Assembly: GCA_030595125.1 (NCBI GenBank)
Contig: JAUVDV010000020.1
Span: forward strand, 1 to 64,000
DNA from: Deltaproteobacteria bacterium
GTDB lineage: Bacteria > Myxococcota_A > Polyangia > JAAYKL01
DNA length: 64,000 nucleotides
Direction of reading: 5' to 3'
In this document: in pieces, positions 51,327-58,385 of the stretch
How positions within the stretch are numbered: position 1 is the stretch's first letter
Layout of the letters: each line of letters starts with the position of its first letter
The notes under the pieces: model-generated
Databases searched by the model: none
Seen by the model: the letters and a program-made list of their open reading frames with translations, nothing else
Told to the model about the DNA's origin: nothing
Position numbers and translations under genes: made by a program

Positions 51327-52775
51327 ATGGAACGTGAAACCTATCGCGAGCCGCTCGTCAGCCGCTACACCGGCCGCGCCATGCAGGAACTCTTCGGCGA
51401 GAACACCAAGTTCAGAACCTGGCGCCGTTGCTGGATAGCCCTCGCGGAGTCCCAGCGGGAGCTGGGCCTCGACTCCATTGTCGGCAAAGAGGCGATAGAG
51501 CAGATGAAGGCTCATACAGACGACATCAACTACGAGGTCGCCGAGGCAAAGGAGAAGGAACTCAGACACGATGTCATGGCTCACGTGCACGCCTTTGGAG
51601 CCCAGTGTCCGGCCGCTGCCGGGATCATTCACCTGGGGGCCACGTCACAGTTCGTGGTCTGCAACACCGACCTGATCCTGCACCGGGAAGCCCTCGCGCT
51701 CATTCACGCCGATCTCGTGAGAGTGATTCACCGGCTGGCCGCCACCGTGAAGCGCCACAAGGATCTCCCGGTCCTGGGAGCGACTCACTTTCAGCCCGCT
51801 CAGCCGACCACGTTGGGAAAACGACTCAGTGTCGCGCTGCAAGATCTCATCATGGATCTGGACGCCGTGGAGTGGGTCATGAATCAGGTCAAGGCCCGGG
51901 GCGCTAAGGGCACAACCGGAACACAGGCGTCATTTCTCAAGCTCTTTGACGGCGACGCGAAGAAAGTGAAACAGCTCGACGAAGCGGTAGCGGAAAAGCT
52001 CGGCTTCGCGGCGTCGTACCCTGTCACTGGTCAGACATATCCGCGCAAACTCGATACGAAGATCGCCGAAACACTGGCCGGCATCGGCGCGTCCGCGCAC
52101 TGGATCGGCGTGAACATTCGCCTCATGTCCGGGCAAAAGGAGATGGACGAACCATTTGGCAAAAAGCAAGTTGGATCGTCCGCCATGGCGTACAAGCGCA
52201 ACCCCATGCGATCCGAACGGATGTGTTCTCTCTCGCGCAAGTTGATGAATCTGCCCGCCGATTTTCACGCCACACACGCCAATCAGTGGATGGAGCGAAC
52301 GCTCGACGACTCCGCCATCCGGCGCATGGATATTCCACAGTCCTACCTGCTTGCCGACGCGGTGCTCGGCCTTCTGCTGGACATCTGCGGGGGCCTGGTT
52401 CCCAACAGTTTTGCCATCGACGCGCGCCTGGCCGCAGATCTTCCATTCCTCGCCACCGAGGAGATCCTGATGGCGGCGGTGGAGAAGGGCGCCTCCCGCC
52501 AGGATGCCCACGAGGTTATTCGGGAGCACTCGATGGAGGTTGCGAGATTGGTCAAGGAGGAGGGAAAGCCCAACGATCTCCTCGACCGCCTCGCAGCGGA
52601 TGAACGCATTCCCCTAGTCGCAAACGACCTTTCCGGGATAGCGCGGGATGCCTCCCGTTTCATCGGCAGGGCCGTCGAGCAGGTGGATGATTATCTCTCG
52701 GGAGTAGTCGAACCCCGCCTCGCCGACTACGCTGATATTCTAAAGCGTGAAGCCGAAAACCGGGTGAAGGTGTAG
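51327..52775 (+). CDS. purB: Adenylosuccinate lyase
   Basis: A 482-residue fumarase-superfamily enzyme that splits adenylosuccinate and SAICAR in purine synthesis. The superfamily signature is SSAMAYKRNPMRSER; the histidine-bearing segment is GATHFQPAQPTT. ATG 51327 follows AGGAGA; in-frame codons from 51231 are likely untranslated leader. It faces the PurF-like gene across a 196-base divergent region in which I found no convincing riboswitch or PurR site. Confidence 0.93.
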   Translation: MERETYREPLVSRYTGRAMQELFGENTKFRTWRRCWIALAESQRELGLDSIVGKEAIEQMKAHTDDINYEVAEAKEKELRHDVMAHVHAFGAQCPAAAGIIHLGATSQFVVCNTDLILHREALALIHADLVRVIHRLAATVKRHKDLPVLGATHFQPAQPTTLGKRLSVALQDLIMDLDAVEWVMNQVKARGAKGTTGTQASFLKLFDGDAKKVKQLDEAVAEKLGFAASYPVTGQTYPRKLDTKIAETLAGIGASAHWIGVNIRLMSGQKEMDEPFGKKQVGSSAMAYKRNPMRSERMCSLSRKLMNLPADFHATHANQWMERTLDDSAIRRMDIPQSYLLADAVLGLLLDICGGLVPNSFAIDARLAADLPFLATEEILMAAVEKGASRQDAHEVIREHSMEVARLVKEEGKPNDLLDRLAADERIPLVANDLSGIARDASRFIGRAVEQVDDYLSGVVEPRLADYADILKREAENRVKV

Positions 52776-53608
52776 TGAAAGCAACTTCCGGATGGAGGAA
52801 GATCTTGCTCTGGGCGATCCTCATGCCCGCTGGAATCTACCTGATTGTCTGTGCGGCCATGTGGGCGTTCCAGAGTTCGTTCATCTACTTTCCCTCCCCG
52901 CACATGCAAGGCGATCCCGGCCTCATCGGCCTCGAGTACACAGACGAACACATGACCACCGAGGACGGCGTCGAGCTCCACGGCTGGTTCGTCCCCTCGT
53001 CGGAGAAGCGGCCAGTGGTGCTCTTTTGCCACGGAAACGCGGGAAACATCTCCGGGAGATTGGAGATGATCCGTCTTCTTCACGAGATTGATCTGAACGT
53101 CTTCATCTTCGACTACCGCGGATACGGCAAGAGCGCGGGCGCGCCGAGCGAGGAGGGAACGTACCTGGACGCGGACGCCGCCTGGGAACATCTTGTAAAG
53201 AAACGCGGCTTCTCTCCCGATCGGATCCTGGTGTTCGGCAGATCCCTCGGAAGCGCCGTCGTGTCGCACCTTGCGGCGCGGGAGAGGCCCGGCGCGGTAG
53301 TGCTCATGTCGGCGTTTACATCCATTCCGCAGGAGGGGCAGGAGGTCTATCCCTGGTTGCCGGTGAAGCTGCTCTCGAGGTTCTCCTATCCAACTCTCGA
53401 CAACGTGAAAAAGATCTCATCGCCGATAATGGTGATCCACGGGCGCAACGACGAGATCATCTCCTTTGCCCACGGAGAGAAGATCTTTGCGGCCGCCAAC
53501 GAGCCCAGACGGTTTCTCGAGATCGGCGGCGGGCACAACGACGCCCTGCACCATTCCGGAAACGATATTGAAAAAGCTCTTCGCGAATTTGTGAACGAGT
53601 ACTATTAG
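52775..53608 (+). CDS. Alpha/beta hydrolase, BEM46-like, membrane-anchored
   Basis: A 277-residue protein with an N-terminal membrane helix (ILLWAILMPAGIYLIVCAAMW), then an alpha/beta hydrolase fold. The oxyanion motif is CHGNAGNISGR, the nucleophile is Ser in VFGRSLGSAVV, an acid follows in IHGRNDEII and the histidine in GGGHNDALHH. The substrate is unknown. It starts at GTG 52775, sharing a base with the purB stop, and ends 32 bases before the cyclitol-type operon. Confidence 0.85.
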   Translation: MKATSGWRKILLWAILMPAGIYLIVCAAMWAFQSSFIYFPSPHMQGDPGLIGLEYTDEHMTTEDGVELHGWFVPSSEKRPVVLFCHGNAGNISGRLEMIRLLHEIDLNVFIFDYRGYGKSAGAPSEEGTYLDADAAWEHLVKKRGFSPDRILVFGRSLGSAVVSHLAARERPGAVVLMSAFTSIPQEGQEVYPWLPVKLLSRFSYPTLDNVKKISSPIMVIHGRNDEIISFAHGEKIFAAANEPRRFLEIGGGHNDALHHSGNDIEKALREFVNEYY

Positions 53609-53640: not shown

Positions 53641-55515
53641 ATGAAACAGGCTCTTATTCTTGCCGCGGGACGCGGTGCTCGTCTGGACCGCCGCGGAACT
53701 CCAAAACCACTGGTAGAGGTTGGCGGGCATCCCATCATTTTCAGGCAGATTGAACAGCTTCGGGATGTGGGCGTTTCGAAAGTCCACGTGGTTCTTGGAT
53801 ACGAGAAACGTCGAATAAGACGCGCCATCGCCGGGCGCCCGTGGGGCGAAAATATGGAGATCGAGTTCCATGAGAATCTCCAGTGGCAAAAAGGTTCGGG
53901 GTTCTCGGTACTGGCGGCGAGAAAGAGTCTGGATGAGCCGTTCCTGCTTCTGATGGGAGATCACATTTTTGACGACAAGCTGGTCACCACCATGGCGCGG
54001 GCGCAGCTTGCCCACAACGCAATGGTTTCGCTCGTGGACAGGGTTACCGTGGACAATCCTTCGTTCGAGTCCGCCCTGAAGGTAGAGATTGACTCGGGCA
54101 AGATCGTCGATGTGGACTGGAGCCTGGACAAGTGCGACGCGCTTGACGCGGGTTTCTTTGTCGCGACCCCAAAACTGTTTTCCGCTCTGGACCAGGCTCT
54201 CGCGTCCAAGGAGAACGTTGAACTCTACGAGGGACTGAAGGTGTTTGCTCAGGAGGGCAAGCTGGGGTTCGTGGCGATCGAAGACGGGAAGTGGGACGAT
54301 GTGGACACGCCGGTCGATCTCGTGCGTGCCGAAGCAAGAATCCGCCTGGCCCGTAGAAAAGAGGTCGTCAAGCATGAGCGCTCGGGGTCAGGCCCGACCG
54401 AAAAGAGCAAGTCGAAGATCTACAACTACGTTCTGGGAAAACCAGAAACCGTCGAGATGATCGTTTCTCGAGGCGCTGTGGCGTCGCCGTTCAGGGAGAA
54501 TCTCATCCCGGACGCAAATGCTTCATCGCCCATATTCGTGTTTACGGACACGACGGTCGCGAAGCTGTATGCAGAGAAGTTCACCGGCAAATTGAAGGGC
54601 AGCGGATACGACGTGCAGTTGATAACGCTGCCGGTGGGCGAAGAGGCAAAGACCCTCTTGAATTATGTGCACGTGGTCGACCGGGTACTGAGCAGAGGCG
54701 TGGATGAACGATCGGTGTTCATTTCGCTGGGCGGGGGCGTTGTGTGCAACGTGTGCGGTTTCGTGGCCTCGACAATATATAGGGGGCTCGATCTGGTGCA
54801 CGTTCCCACAACTCTGATGGCACAGTGCGACGCGGCTATCAGCCACAAGCAGGCGATCAACGGCCAGCGCGGAAAGAACATGGTTGGCGCATACTACAAC
54901 CCCCGAATGGTTGTTGTGGACGTCGAGACCCTGGTGACGCTGACCGACAGGCAGACACGGGACGGTCTCGCGGAGGTCGTCAAACACGGCCTGGGCCAGG
55001 ACGCGCAGCTGGCGAAAACGCTGACCGAATACAACGGTAGCTTCAGGGACCTGGATTTCCTGGAGCAGGTCATCAAGCGCAACATCGAGCTGAAGTGTGA
55101 GCTGGTAAGGACAGATCCAAAAGAGCTGAGGGATGGGATGGTTCTGCAGTATGGTCACACAATCGGGCATCCCATTGAGCACTTGTCCGGATATTCGCTG
55201 TACCACGGTGAGTCTATTGCGATCGGGATGATGGTCGCCGCGCGGATCTCCAGGATACTCGGGGCGTGCTCCGACGAGTTGGTCTTGGCGCACGAGGATA
55301 TGATCGCCAGGTACGGGCTGCCCACAAAGGTGCCCGCCGACATTCGCACGGACGATATTCTCGAGGCGCTGAAGTTCAACAAGAAGTACCTGGTAGAGGG
55401 GACGCGAATGGCGCTGGTGAGCGACGTGGGTCAACTGTGGAGCGTGGATGGAGATTATGCCATCCCGGTTGCGGACCAGGTGTTGATCGAGGCAATAGAG
55501 GCAACGCGAATCTGA
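53641..55515 (+). CDS. Nucleotidyltransferase fused to dehydroquinate-synthase-like cyclase
   Basis: A 624-residue fusion. Residues 1-~240 are a sugar-phosphate-type nucleotidyltransferase (LILAAGRGARLDRRGTPKPL, MGDHIF, WDDVDTPVDL), similar in layout to inositol-phosphate cytidylyltransferases. After the HERSGSGPTEKS linker, residues ~258-624 are a dehydroquinate-synthase-superfamily cyclase: NAD loop LGGGVVCNVCGF, and metal ligands in GLAEVVKHG, YGHTIGHPIE and YHGESIAIG. DAAISHKQAING replaces the AroB VGGKTGIN motif, so this is not AroB but nearer sugar-phosphate cyclases such as deoxy-scyllo-inosose synthase. Expected product: a cyclitol ketone. The fusion implies NDP-cyclitol formation. 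Confidence 0.82.
   Translation: MKQALILAAGRGARLDRRGTPKPLVEVGGHPIIFRQIEQLRDVGVSKVHVVLGYEKRRIRRAIAGRPWGENMEIEFHENLQWQKGSGFSVLAARKSLDEPFLLLMGDHIFDDKLVTTMARAQLAHNAMVSLVDRVTVDNPSFESALKVEIDSGKIVDVDWSLDKCDALDAGFFVATPKLFSALDQALASKENVELYEGLKVFAQEGKLGFVAIEDGKWDDVDTPVDLVRAEARIRLARRKEVVKHERSGSGPTEKSKSKIYNYVLGKPETVEMIVSRGAVASPFRENLIPDANASSPIFVFTDTTVAKLYAEKFTGKLKGSGYDVQLITLPVGEEAKTLLNYVHVVDRVLSRGVDERSVFISLGGGVVCNVCGFVASTIYRGLDLVHVPTTLMAQCDAAISHKQAINGQRGKNMVGAYYNPRMVVVDVETLVTLTDRQTRDGLAEVVKHGLGQDAQLAKTLTEYNGSFRDLDFLEQVIKRNIELKCELVRTDPKELRDGMVLQYGHTIGHPIEHLSGYSLYHGESIAIGMMVAARISRILGACSDELVLAHEDMIARYGLPTKVPADIRTDDILEALKFNKKYLVEGTRMALVSDVGQLWSVDGDYAIPVADQVLIEAIEATRI
54384..54399. repeat. REP-like palindrome relic inside the fusion linker
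   Basis: GGGGTCAGGCCCGACC matches 15 of 16 bases of the palindrome at 22641-22658, in the short linker between the two enzyme domains. Its codons give Ser-Gly-Ser-Gly-Pro-Thr. Confidence 0.6.
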
Positions 55516-55523
55516 AGGACAAT

Positions 55524-56282
55524 ATGATGGAAGAAAAAGCTGCAGTGGTAACGGGAGCAGGCACGGGGATAGGCCGCGAGGTGGTGTTGAAACTCATCGG
55601 CCGCGGGATGAAGGTCTTTGCGGTGGGAATAGACCTGGAGCCGTTACGCGAACTCGCAAAAGAGTGTGAAGAGAAAGGCGCCACGGTTGTGCCGGTTTGT
55701 GTCGATGTGGCCGACGGCGCTGCGCTCAAAAAGGCGCTTTCAAACACGGGGCCGGTCTCGGTGGTTGTCGCCAACGCGGGTATCTGCAAACAGGCCGCAC
55801 TGGACGACCCGAACGCCGATCAGGTGTGGGCAGAGGTGATGTCCGTCAACGTGGACGGCGTCTGGAACACCTTCAGAGCGCTTTACGGGTCAATAGAAGA
55901 AAACGGTCGCGCGGTTGTCGTTTCTTCGGGACTTGGAAAGCTCGGCAGGGGCGGATACGGAGCCTACACCGCCTCCAAACATGCGGTGCTCGGCCTGGTC
56001 AAATGCTTCTCAAAGGAACTGGCGCCCCGAAAGATAACCGTAAACGCGGTTTGCCCCGGTTGGGTGGACACGCAGATGTCCAGGGGGGATATCGTCAGGA
56101 CGGCACAAGAACTGGGCTCAACCCCCGAGCAGGTCAGGCAGGACGCGCTCGCGGGAATACCCCTTGAAAGATTTGTACAGCCGCAAGAAGTCGCCGCTCT
56201 CATCGAGTGGCTCGCCAGTGACAATGCGTCGGCAATTACCGGACAGGCGTACAATATCTCCTGTGGTGAGTTCTTTGCATGA
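55524..56282 (+). CDS. Short-chain dehydrogenase/reductase in the cyclitol operon
   Basis: A 252-residue SDR: nucleotide motif VVTGAGTGIGREV, NAG motif VVANAGIC, and catalytic YTASKHAV with Ser in VVVSSGLGKLG. The following C-terminal segment VNAVCPGWVDTQM is typical. Likely reduces or oxidises the cyclase product. AAGGA lies upstream; ATG 55524 or 55527 both possible. It is 8 bases after the fusion gene and overlaps the kinase gene by 4 bases (ATGA). Confidence 0.88.
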   Translation: MMEEKAAVVTGAGTGIGREVVLKLIGRGMKVFAVGIDLEPLRELAKECEEKGATVVPVCVDVADGAALKKALSNTGPVSVVVANAGICKQAALDDPNADQVWAEVMSVNVDGVWNTFRALYGSIEENGRAVVVSSGLGKLGRGGYGAYTASKHAVLGLVKCFSKELAPRKITVNAVCPGWVDTQMSRGDIVRTAQELGSTPEQVRQDALAGIPLERFVQPQEVAALIEWLASDNASAITGQAYNISCGEFFA

Positions 56283-57175
56283 ACGCTCGCTTAAAAGCTG
56301 ATCTCTCCAGATTGACCGCAGTAACCGTCGGACAGGTGACCCACGATCGTTACGGGGACAGGATAGTTCCCGGCGGGTGTGCGTTCTTTGGCGCCAGAAC
56401 ATTTCGGGGGTTGGGCGCTGTGAGCAGGCTGCTGACGACCGTCGGTGAAGACTTCAATTGTGAGAGCGGACTTGTCGGGCTCGATGTGAGGCGAGAGGTG
56501 AGCCCGGAGACAACGGTTTTTTCAAACCTCTATCCTCCCGGTGAGCCCAGGCTGCAGCTGGTTGAGTCCCGGTCGCAGAGAATTACGGAGAGCATGTATC
56601 CCGATGAATGGAAAAGGCCGGATCTGCTCTTCATCGCTCCGGTCATGGGGGAGATGGACGCAATTCCATGGGCTTCGATCGCGCGGGCCGGTTATACAAC
56701 CGTCGGGCTTCAGGGGTTCATGAAGAAAGCGTCAGATGAGAGGAGGGATGGAAAGGCGGTTGTAGTCGCCCTGGACCATCCACTCGGTCTTGAGCTGTTA
56801 GAAGGTGTCGATGCGGTCTTTCTCAGCAAAGAGGACATTGAGCTGTTTGGAAGTGCCGATTTGTTGGAACAACTTCGATCCCGCGTGGGGGTTGTCGTCG
56901 TGACGCTGGGTGAGGCCGGCTGCGCGGTATACGAGGGCGAGAAAGAACGTCATCTCGGAGTTTACACCACGGACGCGGCGGATCCCACCGGCGCGGGAGA
57001 CACCTTCGCGGCGGCGACGTCCCTCGCTCTTGCGGCCCGCTGGGATGTCATCGATGCCGCCAGGCTGGGCGCGGGTGCGGCTTCGGTTGTCGTAGAGGCG
57101 GATGGCGGAGAAACCCTGGACAGAGTCGGGGAGGGACTGGACCGAATGGACGCGATCTCCATGGTCGATCCCTGA
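56279..57175 (+). CDS. PfkB-family carbohydrate (cyclitol?) kinase
   Basis: A 298-residue PfkB/ribokinase-fold kinase. The anion-hole and catalytic motif is DPTGAGDTFAAA; GGCAFFGARTFRGLG matches the substrate-side glycine segment. PfkB members phosphorylate sugars, nucleosides and inositols. In this operon it would phosphorylate the cyclitol for the nucleotidyltransferase half of the first gene. Convergent with the aminotransferase gene 11 bases away. Confidence 0.85.
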   Translation: MNARLKADLSRLTAVTVGQVTHDRYGDRIVPGGCAFFGARTFRGLGAVSRLLTTVGEDFNCESGLVGLDVRREVSPETTVFSNLYPPGEPRLQLVESRSQRITESMYPDEWKRPDLLFIAPVMGEMDAIPWASIARAGYTTVGLQGFMKKASDERRDGKAVVVALDHPLGLELLEGVDAVFLSKEDIELFGSADLLEQLRSRVGVVVVTLGEAGCAVYEGEKERHLGVYTTDAADPTGAGDTFAAATSLALAARWDVIDAARLGAGAASVVVEADGGETLDRVGEGLDRMDAISMVDP

Positions 57176-57185
57176 GAGTTTCAGG

Positions 57186-58385
57186 CTAGCACAAGACCTT
57201 GCGGATGCGCTCGATGGCCCAGTCGAGGTCTTCCTCGGAGATAATCAGCGGCGGGGCGAAGCGGATGACCGACTCGTGGGTCTCCTTGCAGAGTATGCCC
57301 TCTTCCTTGAGTCGCTCGCAGAAGGGGCGCGCGGGGCCGGCCTCGTCCGTGAGATCCACGCCGATGAACAGGCCGCTTCCCCGGATCTCTTTCACGTGAG
57401 GGGAGTTCATTTCCACGATCTGCTGCTTGAAATACGCGCCGAGCTCGGCGGAGCGTTCGGTGAGTTTTTCGTCCAGTATGACGGCGATTGCGGCCCGTGC
57501 CACCGCGCAGGCCAGGGGCGATCCTCCGAAGGTGGAGCCGTGCTCGCCGGGGTTGAACACGCCGAGCACTTCTTTTTTTGATGCGACCGCGGACACCGGC
57601 AACACGCCGCCGGAGAGCGCCTTGCCCATAATGATCGCGTCCGGGATCACGCCCTCGTGATCTACGCAGAACATCTTGCCCGTACGTCCGAAGCCGGTCT
57701 GGATCTCATCGACCAGGAGCAGAACGTTGTTCCTTGTACAGATCTCGCGACACTTCTTGAGATAGCCCGCAGGAGGTATTACCACGCCGGCCTCGCCCTG
57801 GATGGGCTCCACGAGGAACGCGCAGGTGGAGGGGGTGATGGCCTTTTCCAGAGCGTCGGCGTCCCCGTACGGGATGATCTTGAAGCCAGGAGTGAGCGGG
57901 CCGAAGTCCTTCTTGTAGGATTCCTCGGACGAGAAGCTGATGACGGTAGTGGTGCGGCCGTGGAAGTTTCCCTCGCACACGATTATCTCGGCGGTGTCCG
58001 GCGCGATTCCCTTGACCGTATGACCCCACTTTCGAGCGGCCTTGACCGAAGTCTCCACGGCCTCCGCGCCTGTGTTCATGGGCAGTACCATGTCCATACC
58101 CGTGAGCTTTGCGATATCTCTGTACAGTTCGCCGAGCTGGTCGTTGTGGAACGCGCGGCTTGTGAGCGTGACGCGATCGGCCTGTTCCTTGAGAGCGCCG
58201 ATGATGCGCGGGTGGCGGTGACCCTGGTTGAGTGCGGAGTACGCGCTGAGCATATCCATGTAGCGATTGCCTTCCGGGTCTTCTACCCAGCAACCTTCTG
58301 CCTTCGAGATGACGATGGGCAGGGGATGGTAGTTGCGGGCGCCGTACTTCTCGGTGACTTCAATTACTTCTTTGCTGGTAGTCAT
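57186..58385 (-). CDS. rocD: Ornithine-oxo-acid aminotransferase
   Basis: A 399-residue class III PLP aminotransferase resembling ornithine aminotransferase: [22 protein letters not shown] near the start, the PLP lysine in [28 protein letters not shown], and [15 protein letters not shown]. It converts ornithine to glutamate semialdehyde. GGAGG precedes the start. Its strand and family argue against a part in the cyclitol operon. Confidence 0.88.

Follow-up and report, generated by a model that had tools for sequence, protein, structure and literature searches.

What could be made by three tightly packed genes whose products combine a nucleotidyltransferase (NTase), a sugar phosphate cyclase, a dehydrogenase and a kinase? 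The question is raised by an operon at positions 53641–57175 (forward strand) of the window, that is, the whole 64,000-nucleotide stretch of DNA analysed here. The preliminary description of this DNA had assigned four activities to the three genes; the open reading frames are exactly as claimed and Pfam agrees, with NTP_transf_3/NTP_transferase (aa 4–233) and DHQ_synthase plus DHQS_C (aa 328–582) in the fused first product, adh_short in the second and PfkB in the third, all above their gathering scores (Table 1). The SDR gene starts 8 bp past the stop codon of the fusion, and the start of the PfkB gene overlaps the SDR stop (ATGA). Two flanking genes were considered and discarded: a hydrolase (52775–53608) as a member of the operon, as it is not conserved at the loci of relatives, and an ornithine aminotransferase (57186–58385, reverse strand) as an aminocyclitol step, since its product fits ornithine–oxo-acid transaminase above the cut-off and its presence beside the operon is not conserved.

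Table 1. Positions of the operon features in the window, with conserved residues and predicted roles
Feature	Coordinates	Strand	Characteristics
NTase–cyclase fusion	53641..55515	+	624 aa; NTase aa ~1–240, linker ~241–285, sugar phosphate cyclase ~290–610
NTase half of fusion	53641..54360	+	GxGxRL and K22, D107 (MGDH), D220/D222 (DDVDTP) conserved; nearest to CTP:inositol-1-phosphate cytidylyltransferase
Cyclase half of fusion	54505..55470	+	DHQ_synthase/DHQS_C; retains catalytic and metal residues; tree joins it to DOIS
Motif DAAISHKQAIN (fusion aa 397–407)	54829..54861	+	K-T of AroB replaced by K-Q, as in DOIS
GMVLQYGHTIGH (fusion aa 499–510)	55135..55170	+	Carboxylate-binding Arg of AroB replaced by Gly; fingerprint Asn replaced by Gln; H506 (metal ligand) and H510 retained
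SDR oxidoreductase	55524..56282	+	252 aa; N109/S134-S135/Y148/K152 conserved; predicted cyclitol dehydrogenase (ketone reduction)
PfkB-family kinase	56279..57175	+	298 aa; GG (32–33) and DPTGAGD (235–241) conserved; predicted cyclitol kinase

In more than 25 other assemblies of Myxococcota the full fusion recurs at 47–95% identity, and a Patescibacterium has it at about 34%, so that it is neither a chance product nor an assembly artefact. When 34 homologous loci from other genomes were compared, counting neighbours only where the contig continues far enough, the SDR gene followed the fusion in 29 of 29 and PfkB followed the SDR in 26 of 28, with junctions that are mostly 4-bp overlaps; the lack of co-occurrence in relatives that, according to the preliminary description, would have refuted its reading was therefore not found. 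In a number of carriers (L073, L081 and L185–L187) no PfkB gene stands next to the SDR, and the flanks of the trio differ between loci, with no further neighbour recurring widely. No relatives of the fusion were present in the viral contigs searched, and the plasmids searched held only separate AroB, DOIS or EEVS and no fusion. The operon is intact across many Myxococcota and has in part been transferred to Patescibacteria. The carriers include the cultured Lujinxingia (Myxococcota), with a homologue of the fusion (L064) in Lujinxingia vulgaris TMQ2. The residues T10, G11, G15, I16, G17, S134/S135, Y148 and K152 of the SDR, which correspond to the TGxxxGIG and S-YxxxK signatures of a classical SDR, are conserved in at least 90% of 34; those of the kinase (G32-G33 and DPTGAGD) are equally conserved in at least 90% of 28, its match being above the PF00294 cut-off. 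The AlphaFold2 model of the fusion resolves into two domains predicted with confidence (mean pLDDT 89, with low values only near the linker at aa 241–270), and the modelled cyclase half can be overlaid on the crystal structures of DHQS and of DOIS, a structural check that had been proposed for it.

The cyclase half might be taken for an ordinary, or a moonlighting, 3-dehydroquinate synthase (DHQS), given that TIGR01357 (aroB) is its best NCBIfam model and that the closest PDB structures to it are DHQS. However, the score of 289.6 bits lies under the cut-off of 305 (the proteins of L080 and L083 reach 265.1 and 267.0), and the genus of the window (G000–G002) lacks both aroA and aroC, the fusion being there the sole full match to PF01761, the DHQ-synthase family. 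Each of the other Myxococcota carriers checked, complete genomes included, possesses a second PF01761 gene, that is, a separate AroB. The residues point the same way. The carboxylate-binding Arg (An-R264) is replaced by Gly or Ala and An-N268 by Gln in all 38 clade members, while Arg and Asn are found in 47/47 AroBs; T153, the residue found in most of these AroBs, is Gln in 38/38, and D119, invariant in the 47, is Asn in 37 of 38. In turn, K152, E194, K197, K250, H271, H275, H287 and K356 are retained in the clade, the metal ligands (E194, H271 and H287) and the catalytic K152 and K197 of the sugar phosphate cyclase superfamily being kept in 38/38. Genome content, residues and model score rule out AroB identity; as judged from these features the cyclase is not an AroB, and a DHQS role of either kind is scarcely credible. 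What had been noticed earlier about this half was borne out: its metal ligands are present (E445, H506 and H522), DAAISHKQAIN takes the place of the AroB motif and is near-invariant across the fusion family, and its affinity is to sugar phosphate cyclases other than AroB.

Which of these cyclases it resembles bears on the ring that would be formed. DOIS is a glucose-6-phosphate cyclase, and the tree joins the fusion clade to DOIS with support of 100/99, without nesting it inside DOIS. None of the true AroBs included grouped with the clade, so that the other outcome named by the preliminary description as a refutation, a cyclase inside true AroB, was not found either. The sampling covered only three DOIS sequences, and EboD sequences were left out. 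In addition to the fold and the metal ligands, DOIS (PDB 2d2x/2gru) shares three of the four changed AroB sites (Asn for D119, Gln for T153, the residue following the catalytic Lys, and Gly for R264). In contrast, the fingerprint residue is Gln503 in 38/38 clade members, Glu in 3/3 DOIS and Asn in DHQS, and the clade may accordingly use a substrate unlike that of either. The window cyclase also differs from DOIS in lacking the DNKRG insertion, in being fused to an NTase and in having no aminotransferase partner, and hence the operon is not a 2-deoxystreptamine route.

The preliminary description had likened the operon to the acarbose and validamycin pathways (AcbC ... AcbR, ValA ... ValB), in which a sugar phosphate cyclase, a dehydrogenase, a kinase and a cyclitol nucleotidyltransferase act (PMC9200736). 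The order of activities does match, and it would suit a cyclase of the EEVS/EVS/DDGS type converting sedoheptulose 7-phosphate to a C7 cyclitol, with an NDP-valienol- or valiolol-like product. Moreover, a clade of the fusion plus EEVS was not rejected by AU tests (p 0.42), nor was EEVS joined to DOIS away from the clade (p 0.39), and the deep branching of the clade is not fixed by these tests. Nevertheless, EEVS and DDGS form a group apart in the tree (100/100), and their references carry Met for K250, Pro for H275 and Asp or Ala for the fingerprint N268, whereas the clade has Lys (K485), His (H510) and Gln in 38/38. With one SDR and one kinase only, the operon offers no epimerase, dehydratase or second kinase, while the acarbose route takes a pair of kinases as well as an epimerase, a phosphatase and additional redox steps; acarbose and validamycin further differ in their C7 substrate, their cyclase clade, the use of GDP rather than the CDP inferred here and the absence of a fusion. 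Thus, the logic of the comparison stands but its C7 chemistry is probably wrong, as residues and tree favour the DOIS side, a C6 ring and an IPCT-like partner. Residues and bootstrap speak against a C7 cyclase, although the AU tests leave the deep placement unsettled; such a cyclase is considered unlikely, and a C6 cyclitol from a hexose 6-phosphate appears the likelier product on the present evidence of residues and tree. EboD, which its authors put close to the C7 enzymes, is likewise an SPC clade long annotated as AroB, within a conserved operon (ebo) of unknown product (PMC5133447), but its partners are UbiA-like and TIM-barrel proteins and it has no NTase fusion.

As for the NTase half, its top NCBIfam match is the inositol-1-phosphate cytidylyltransferase (IPCT) model, which 27/27 members also match, and its top PDB match is an IPCT (2xme; 4mnd is another), with GxGxRL and GDH motifs in common. 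The window NTase lies, however, far under the family cut-off (123 bits against 580 for NF041135, bifunctional IPCT/DIPPS, a model spanning a transferase domain absent here), and the partner or fusion of IPCT is a CDP-inositol phosphotransferase, not a cyclase. The half is nearest to CTP:inositol-1-phosphate cytidylyltransferase by homology, and the transfer of CMP to a cyclitol phosphate is inferred from this nearest family only. It could be argued that the NTase merely activates MIPS-derived myo-inositol 1-phosphate to CDP-inositol, the cyclase, SDR and PfkB serving a separate compound and the fusion being a convenience of co-regulation: MIPS was found in 12 of 17 genomes searched, that of the window included, and in G035 an unfused NTase homologue adjoins MIPS. 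Yet both halves remain fused across the family, and neither of the two fusion-bearing Patescibacteria has a MIPS gene, so the cyclitol there cannot be MIPS-derived. Such a division of labour is deemed quite improbable.

The destination of the product was approached through the neighbouring genes. Inositol-phosphate-type CDP-alcohol phosphotransferases adjoin the cyclase in five loci from three lineages, so the linkage that had been anticipated exists in several relatives, though no transferase is adjacent to the operon of the window itself. In two Patescibacteria the fusion is accompanied by an MDR dehydrogenase, an APH-fold kinase, a second NTase and a CDP-alcohol phosphotransferase, which is the same set of activities built from different enzymes. 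In two Bradymonadia the trio is divergent from MIPS, a PIP-synthase-like transferase and MMPL, one of them also having a phosphoinositol-dihydroceramide-synthase-like gene, and at L078, an unfused cyclase–SDR–PfkB locus, genes for a stand-alone NTase and a CDP-alcohol phosphotransferase lie 2 kb off. Apart from the Bradymonadia cassette and L078, no transferase or glycosyltransferase recurs beside the Myxococcota operon over 35 loci. AIPS/PIPS-type transferases normally use a CDP-lipid and inositol phosphate, and linkage alone is therefore no proof of a CDP-cyclitol donor; co-occurrence of PF01066 with the fusion is uninformative, because the fusion-less G002 has the same count as the genome of the window (G000). 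An IPCT-like NTase together with DIPP-synthase-like transferases (L199 in the window's own genome) belongs to the families by which thermophiles produce di-myo-inositol phosphate, which would suit a small soluble product, either a compatible solute of that kind or a secondary metabolite; the DIPPS-like protein of G000 is also present in fusion-less relatives. Against this, the genes beside the trio in the two Bradymonadia have a lipid theme, and the neighbours of the fusion in Patescibacteria include glycosyltransferases. A soluble product is regarded as rather unlikely, and the inferred CDP-activated C6 cyclitol probably ends up as the head group of a lipid or glycan, with no biochemistry to support it.

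These observations can be integrated in a model, which we favour with some reservation and without biochemical evidence, where the operon is a self-contained minimal route to a nucleotide-activated C6 cyclitol. In the first step, the cyclase half, holding NAD and a divalent metal ion, would run through the DHQS/DOIS cycle (oxidation, elimination of phosphate, reduction, then aldol closure) and turn a hexose 6-phosphate, of which glucose 6-phosphate is the likeliest, into a ketocyclitol of the 2-deoxy-inosose type. The SDR would then reduce the ketone to a deoxy-inositol-type cyclitol, the PfkB kinase would phosphorylate it, and the NTase half, which shares its polypeptide with the cyclase, would yield an NDP-cyclitol, most likely CDP. 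Finally, transfer of the cyclitol phosphate onto a lipid or glycan would fall to a CDP-alcohol phosphotransferase, whose gene lies at another place in the genome of the window and next to the operon in some relatives; the result would be an inositol-like head group. Sequence analysis alone establishes the four folds with intact catalytic residues, their kept order, the exclusion of AroB and the phosphotransferase linkage in some relatives; the substrate, the order of the second to fourth steps, the use of CTP and the fifth step are inferred. The closest proposal is that of the Bacteroidetes CDP-inositol/inositol-lipid clusters (MIPS, NTP transferase, CDP-alcohol phosphatidyltransferase and HAD), where an NTP transferase followed by a CDP-alcohol phosphotransferase would lead to an inositol lipid (PMC9246714), but their cyclitol is myo-inositol from MIPS, whereas in the operon a DHQS-fold cyclase would make it.

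No NTase–SPC fusion or CDP-cyclitol was found in the open-access papers searched, which are not all the literature, and the earlier statement that no described system has this fusion holds within those papers and the family libraries searched. The ring-forming enzyme fused to a presumed nucleotide-adding enzyme constitutes a previously undescribed cyclase class, its activity being unproven, and would be labelled AroB by automatic annotation, in a genus without a shikimate pathway. To our knowledge, all the known routes to nucleotide-activated cyclitols are many-gene antibiotic clusters or start from myo-inositol; here there are three genes only, in non-antibiotic settings that include the two Bradymonadia beside inositol-lipid genes. 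The predicted metabolite is CDP-deoxyinositol or a similar compound. It is possible, as a tentative proposal, that the new class with the Gln503 fingerprint leads to an undescribed cyclitol, formed and, after reduction and phosphorylation by the two partners, CDP-activated by one bifunctional protein, for a non-myo-inositol lipid (or glycan) head group in Myxococcota that was passed horizontally to Patescibacteria making no inositol. For Myxococcota, the cultured Lujinxingia included, and for some Patescibacteria, the operon also predicts a new head group of lipids or glycans.

The three open reading frames recognised in the preliminary description are all present. The first encodes a protein of 624 residues in which a nucleotidyltransferase (NTase; residues 4-233, PF12804 and PF00483) is N-terminal to a cyclase half containing both DHQ synthase family domains (residues 328-582, PF01761 and PF24621), and the other two encode a classical SDR and a PfkB kinase. 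The stop of the fusion gene lies 8 bp from the SDR start, and the SDR stop and kinase start overlap by four bases. AlphaFold2, run with 27 homologues, modelled the fusion as two confident domains with a low-confidence linker, and Foldseek matched the cyclase half to structures of DHQS and of the C6 cyclase DOIS.

Features of the operon and of related loci
Feature	Location	Strand	Remark
NTase-cyclase fusion	53641-55515	(+)	
SDR	55524-56282	(+)	
PfkB kinase	56279-57175	(+)	
MIPS, then IPCT-like NTase	L045:7541-9564		G035; NTase homologous to N-terminal half of fusion
Apparent inositol (sphingo)lipid cassette	L184:2097-8284	(-)	Bradymonadia, complete genome G198; also L060
DIPP-synthase-like CDP-alcohol phosphotransferase	L199:670-1818, G000:C48	(-)	98 bits to NF041135
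Further NTase domain	G000:C143:70980-71672		634-aa frame
'Iron-containing alcohol dehydrogenase' (as annotated)	L050:1958-3193		WP_168720894.1, Streptomyces sp. SAT1 plasmid

The entire fusion was found in 12 further genomes of the same class (59 relatives searched), and when about 85,000 species genomes were scanned with a pair of family peptides, 34 loci were recovered, nearly all in Myxococcota (including Lujinxingia vulgaris, Polyangiaceae, Kofleriaceae and Nannocystaceae) and one in a Candidatus Falkowbacteria. The distribution is patchy, with 24 carriers among 379 sampled Myxococcota genomes. A lack of co-occurrence in related genomes would have refuted the original proposal; among the 34 loci, the SDR comes after the fusion in all 29 whose contig is long enough to tell, and the kinase keeps its place in 26 of 28. 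Considering this conserved order, the very short or overlapping spacing across homologous loci and the absence, across 35 loci, of any other widely common neighbour, the three genes look like a functional module of exactly three members. Five loci (L185, L186, L187, L073 and L081) carry fusion and SDR without an adjacent PfkB gene; their kinase must be elsewhere in the genome or replaced.

The fusion is the sole full DHQ synthase family match in its genome. None of the three genomes of the genus contains chorismate synthase (aroC), and their aroA-like matches are only weak (E 1e-13 to 1e-15), presumably MurA paralogues. Without aroA, aroC or a free-standing aroB, the genus is predicted to lack aromatic amino acid synthesis by the shikimate route. 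Every other Myxococcota carrier that was checked, the single-contig genomes G065, G198 and G137 among them, has a further DHQ synthase family gene apart from the fusion; in many relatives this gene exceeds the aroB cut-off. Residues are numbered, and their roles assigned, after A. nidulans DHQS, in which we take Arg264 to be the arginine for the substrate carboxylate. This position is Gly or Ala in all 38 members of the clade formed by cyclases of the fusion family and Arg in 47 of 47 AroBs. Asn268 is likewise replaced, by Gln, throughout the clade (38 of 38) and kept in every AroB (47 of 47). Taken together, these observations rule out a shikimate DHQS (AroB). The metal ligands are retained, as are the remaining catalytic lysines and histidines; judging from these residues, the cyclase should still carry out the cyclisation, acting on a substrate that lacks this carboxylate.

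In a maximum-likelihood tree of 93 cyclase sequences, the clade joined DOIS (support 100/99) and grouped with none of the sampled true AroBs, as the NDP-cyclitol proposal demanded, and the C7 cyclases EEVS and DDGS formed a separate group (100/100). The clade and DOIS have in common Asn for D119, Gln for T153 and a small residue for R264, none of which occurs in the EEVS/DDGS references except for a single Ala at R264. The clade itself lacks Pro for H275 and Met for K250, which mark EEVS/DDGS. Its own mark is a Gln (Gln503 in the protein studied here), where DHQS has Asn, DOIS has Glu and EEVS/DDGS have Asp or Ala. However, AU tests did not reject a tree that pairs the clade with EEVS (p 0.42) or one that places EEVS next to DOIS and away from the clade (p 0.39), AroB was not a single clade and only three DOIS rows were included, so that a C6 type is likely, but not established, from these comparisons. 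Thus, the initial NDP-cyclitol interpretation is supported, but tree and residues favour a C6, DOIS-like cyclase over the C7 enzyme of the acarbose and validamycin type that it invoked. A Streptomyces protein, WP_168720894.1, encoded near a DegT aminotransferase, groups with the DOIS BtrC and is probably a misannotated 2-deoxy-scyllo-inosose synthase.

For the NTase half of the window protein, the curated model that fits best is the archaeal inositol-1-phosphate cytidylyltransferase (IPCT), matched by 27 of 27 fusion proteins; among solved structures, Archaeoglobus IPCT (2xme) is the top match, with GxGxRL and MGDH motifs in common. In a fusion-less Myxococcota genome (G035), an unfused homologue of this half (39% identity) adjoins myo-inositol-1-phosphate synthase (MIPS), likely as a CDP-inositol pair. 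On these grounds, a cyclitol phosphate substrate and CTP are favoured by inference. The further NTase domain of the window's genome, conserved in relatives, may belong to an NTase-aminotransferase fusion resembling PntC.

From the folds, the catalytic residues and the conservation of the linkage, a pathway can be inferred in which the cyclase half would convert a hexose 6-phosphate (glucose 6-phosphate in DOIS, PMC6170601) into a 2-deoxy-inosose-type ketone, the SDR would reduce it to a cyclitol, PfkB would phosphorylate the latter, and the NTase half would yield an NDP-cyclitol, probably CDP-linked. A CDP-alcohol phosphotransferase may then transfer it to a lipid or glycan, an inference from gene linkage at five loci in three lineages, where the partner suggested in the preliminary description was indeed found. 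Two Patescibacteria (34-38% identity to the query or each other) carry the fusion without SDR or PfkB and without MIPS in their genomes; adjoining it are a zinc-type dehydrogenase, an APH-fold kinase, a second NTase and a CDP-alcohol phosphotransferase that best fits the model for archaetidylinositol phosphate synthase. An equal set of activities from different enzymes is expected if the pathway comprises cyclase, dehydrogenase, kinase and nucleotidyltransferase. Two Bradymonadia, G198 and L060, have the trio in divergent orientation to genes for MIPS, an MMPL exporter and a PIP-synthase-like CDP-alcohol phosphotransferase, and G198 additionally encodes a phosphoinositol-dihydroceramide-synthase-like PAP2 protein. 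Locus L078 has an unfused cyclase-SDR-PfkB set, with a separate NTase and CDP-alcohol phosphotransferase 2 kb upstream. L078 and L083, neither of which is fused, lie at the clade base (support at the L078 node only 83/41), so the fusion probably arose after the operon. AIPS/PIPS-type enzymes usually take a CDP-lipid and inositol phosphate, so their linkage supports inositol-like phosphates but does not prove a CDP-cyclitol donor. In the window's own genome, the DIPP-synthase-like protein, whose N-terminal part lacks the NTase GxGxR motif, is only a candidate acceptor enzyme for an activated cyclitol because fusion-less relatives also have it.

No description of an NTase-cyclase fusion or of a CDP-cyclitol was found in the literature searched, which left out most subscription journals. 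The clade is a new cyclase class, here fused to its own nucleotidyltransferase, and falls outside AroB, EEVS/DDGS and, in the strict sense, DOIS; EboD offers a precedent for a sugar phosphate cyclase clade concealed by AroB annotation (PMC5133447). In its predicted activities, the operon parallels the part of acarbose biosynthesis that activates the cyclitol (PMC9200736), but it has far fewer steps and its cyclase is of another, probably C6, type. It is also similar to the route by which CDP-inositol is proposed to lead to lipids in Bacteroidetes (PMC9246714), except that it would make its own cyclitol. The evidence therefore supports, with the C6 correction, a minimal and widely conserved NDP-cyclitol operon.
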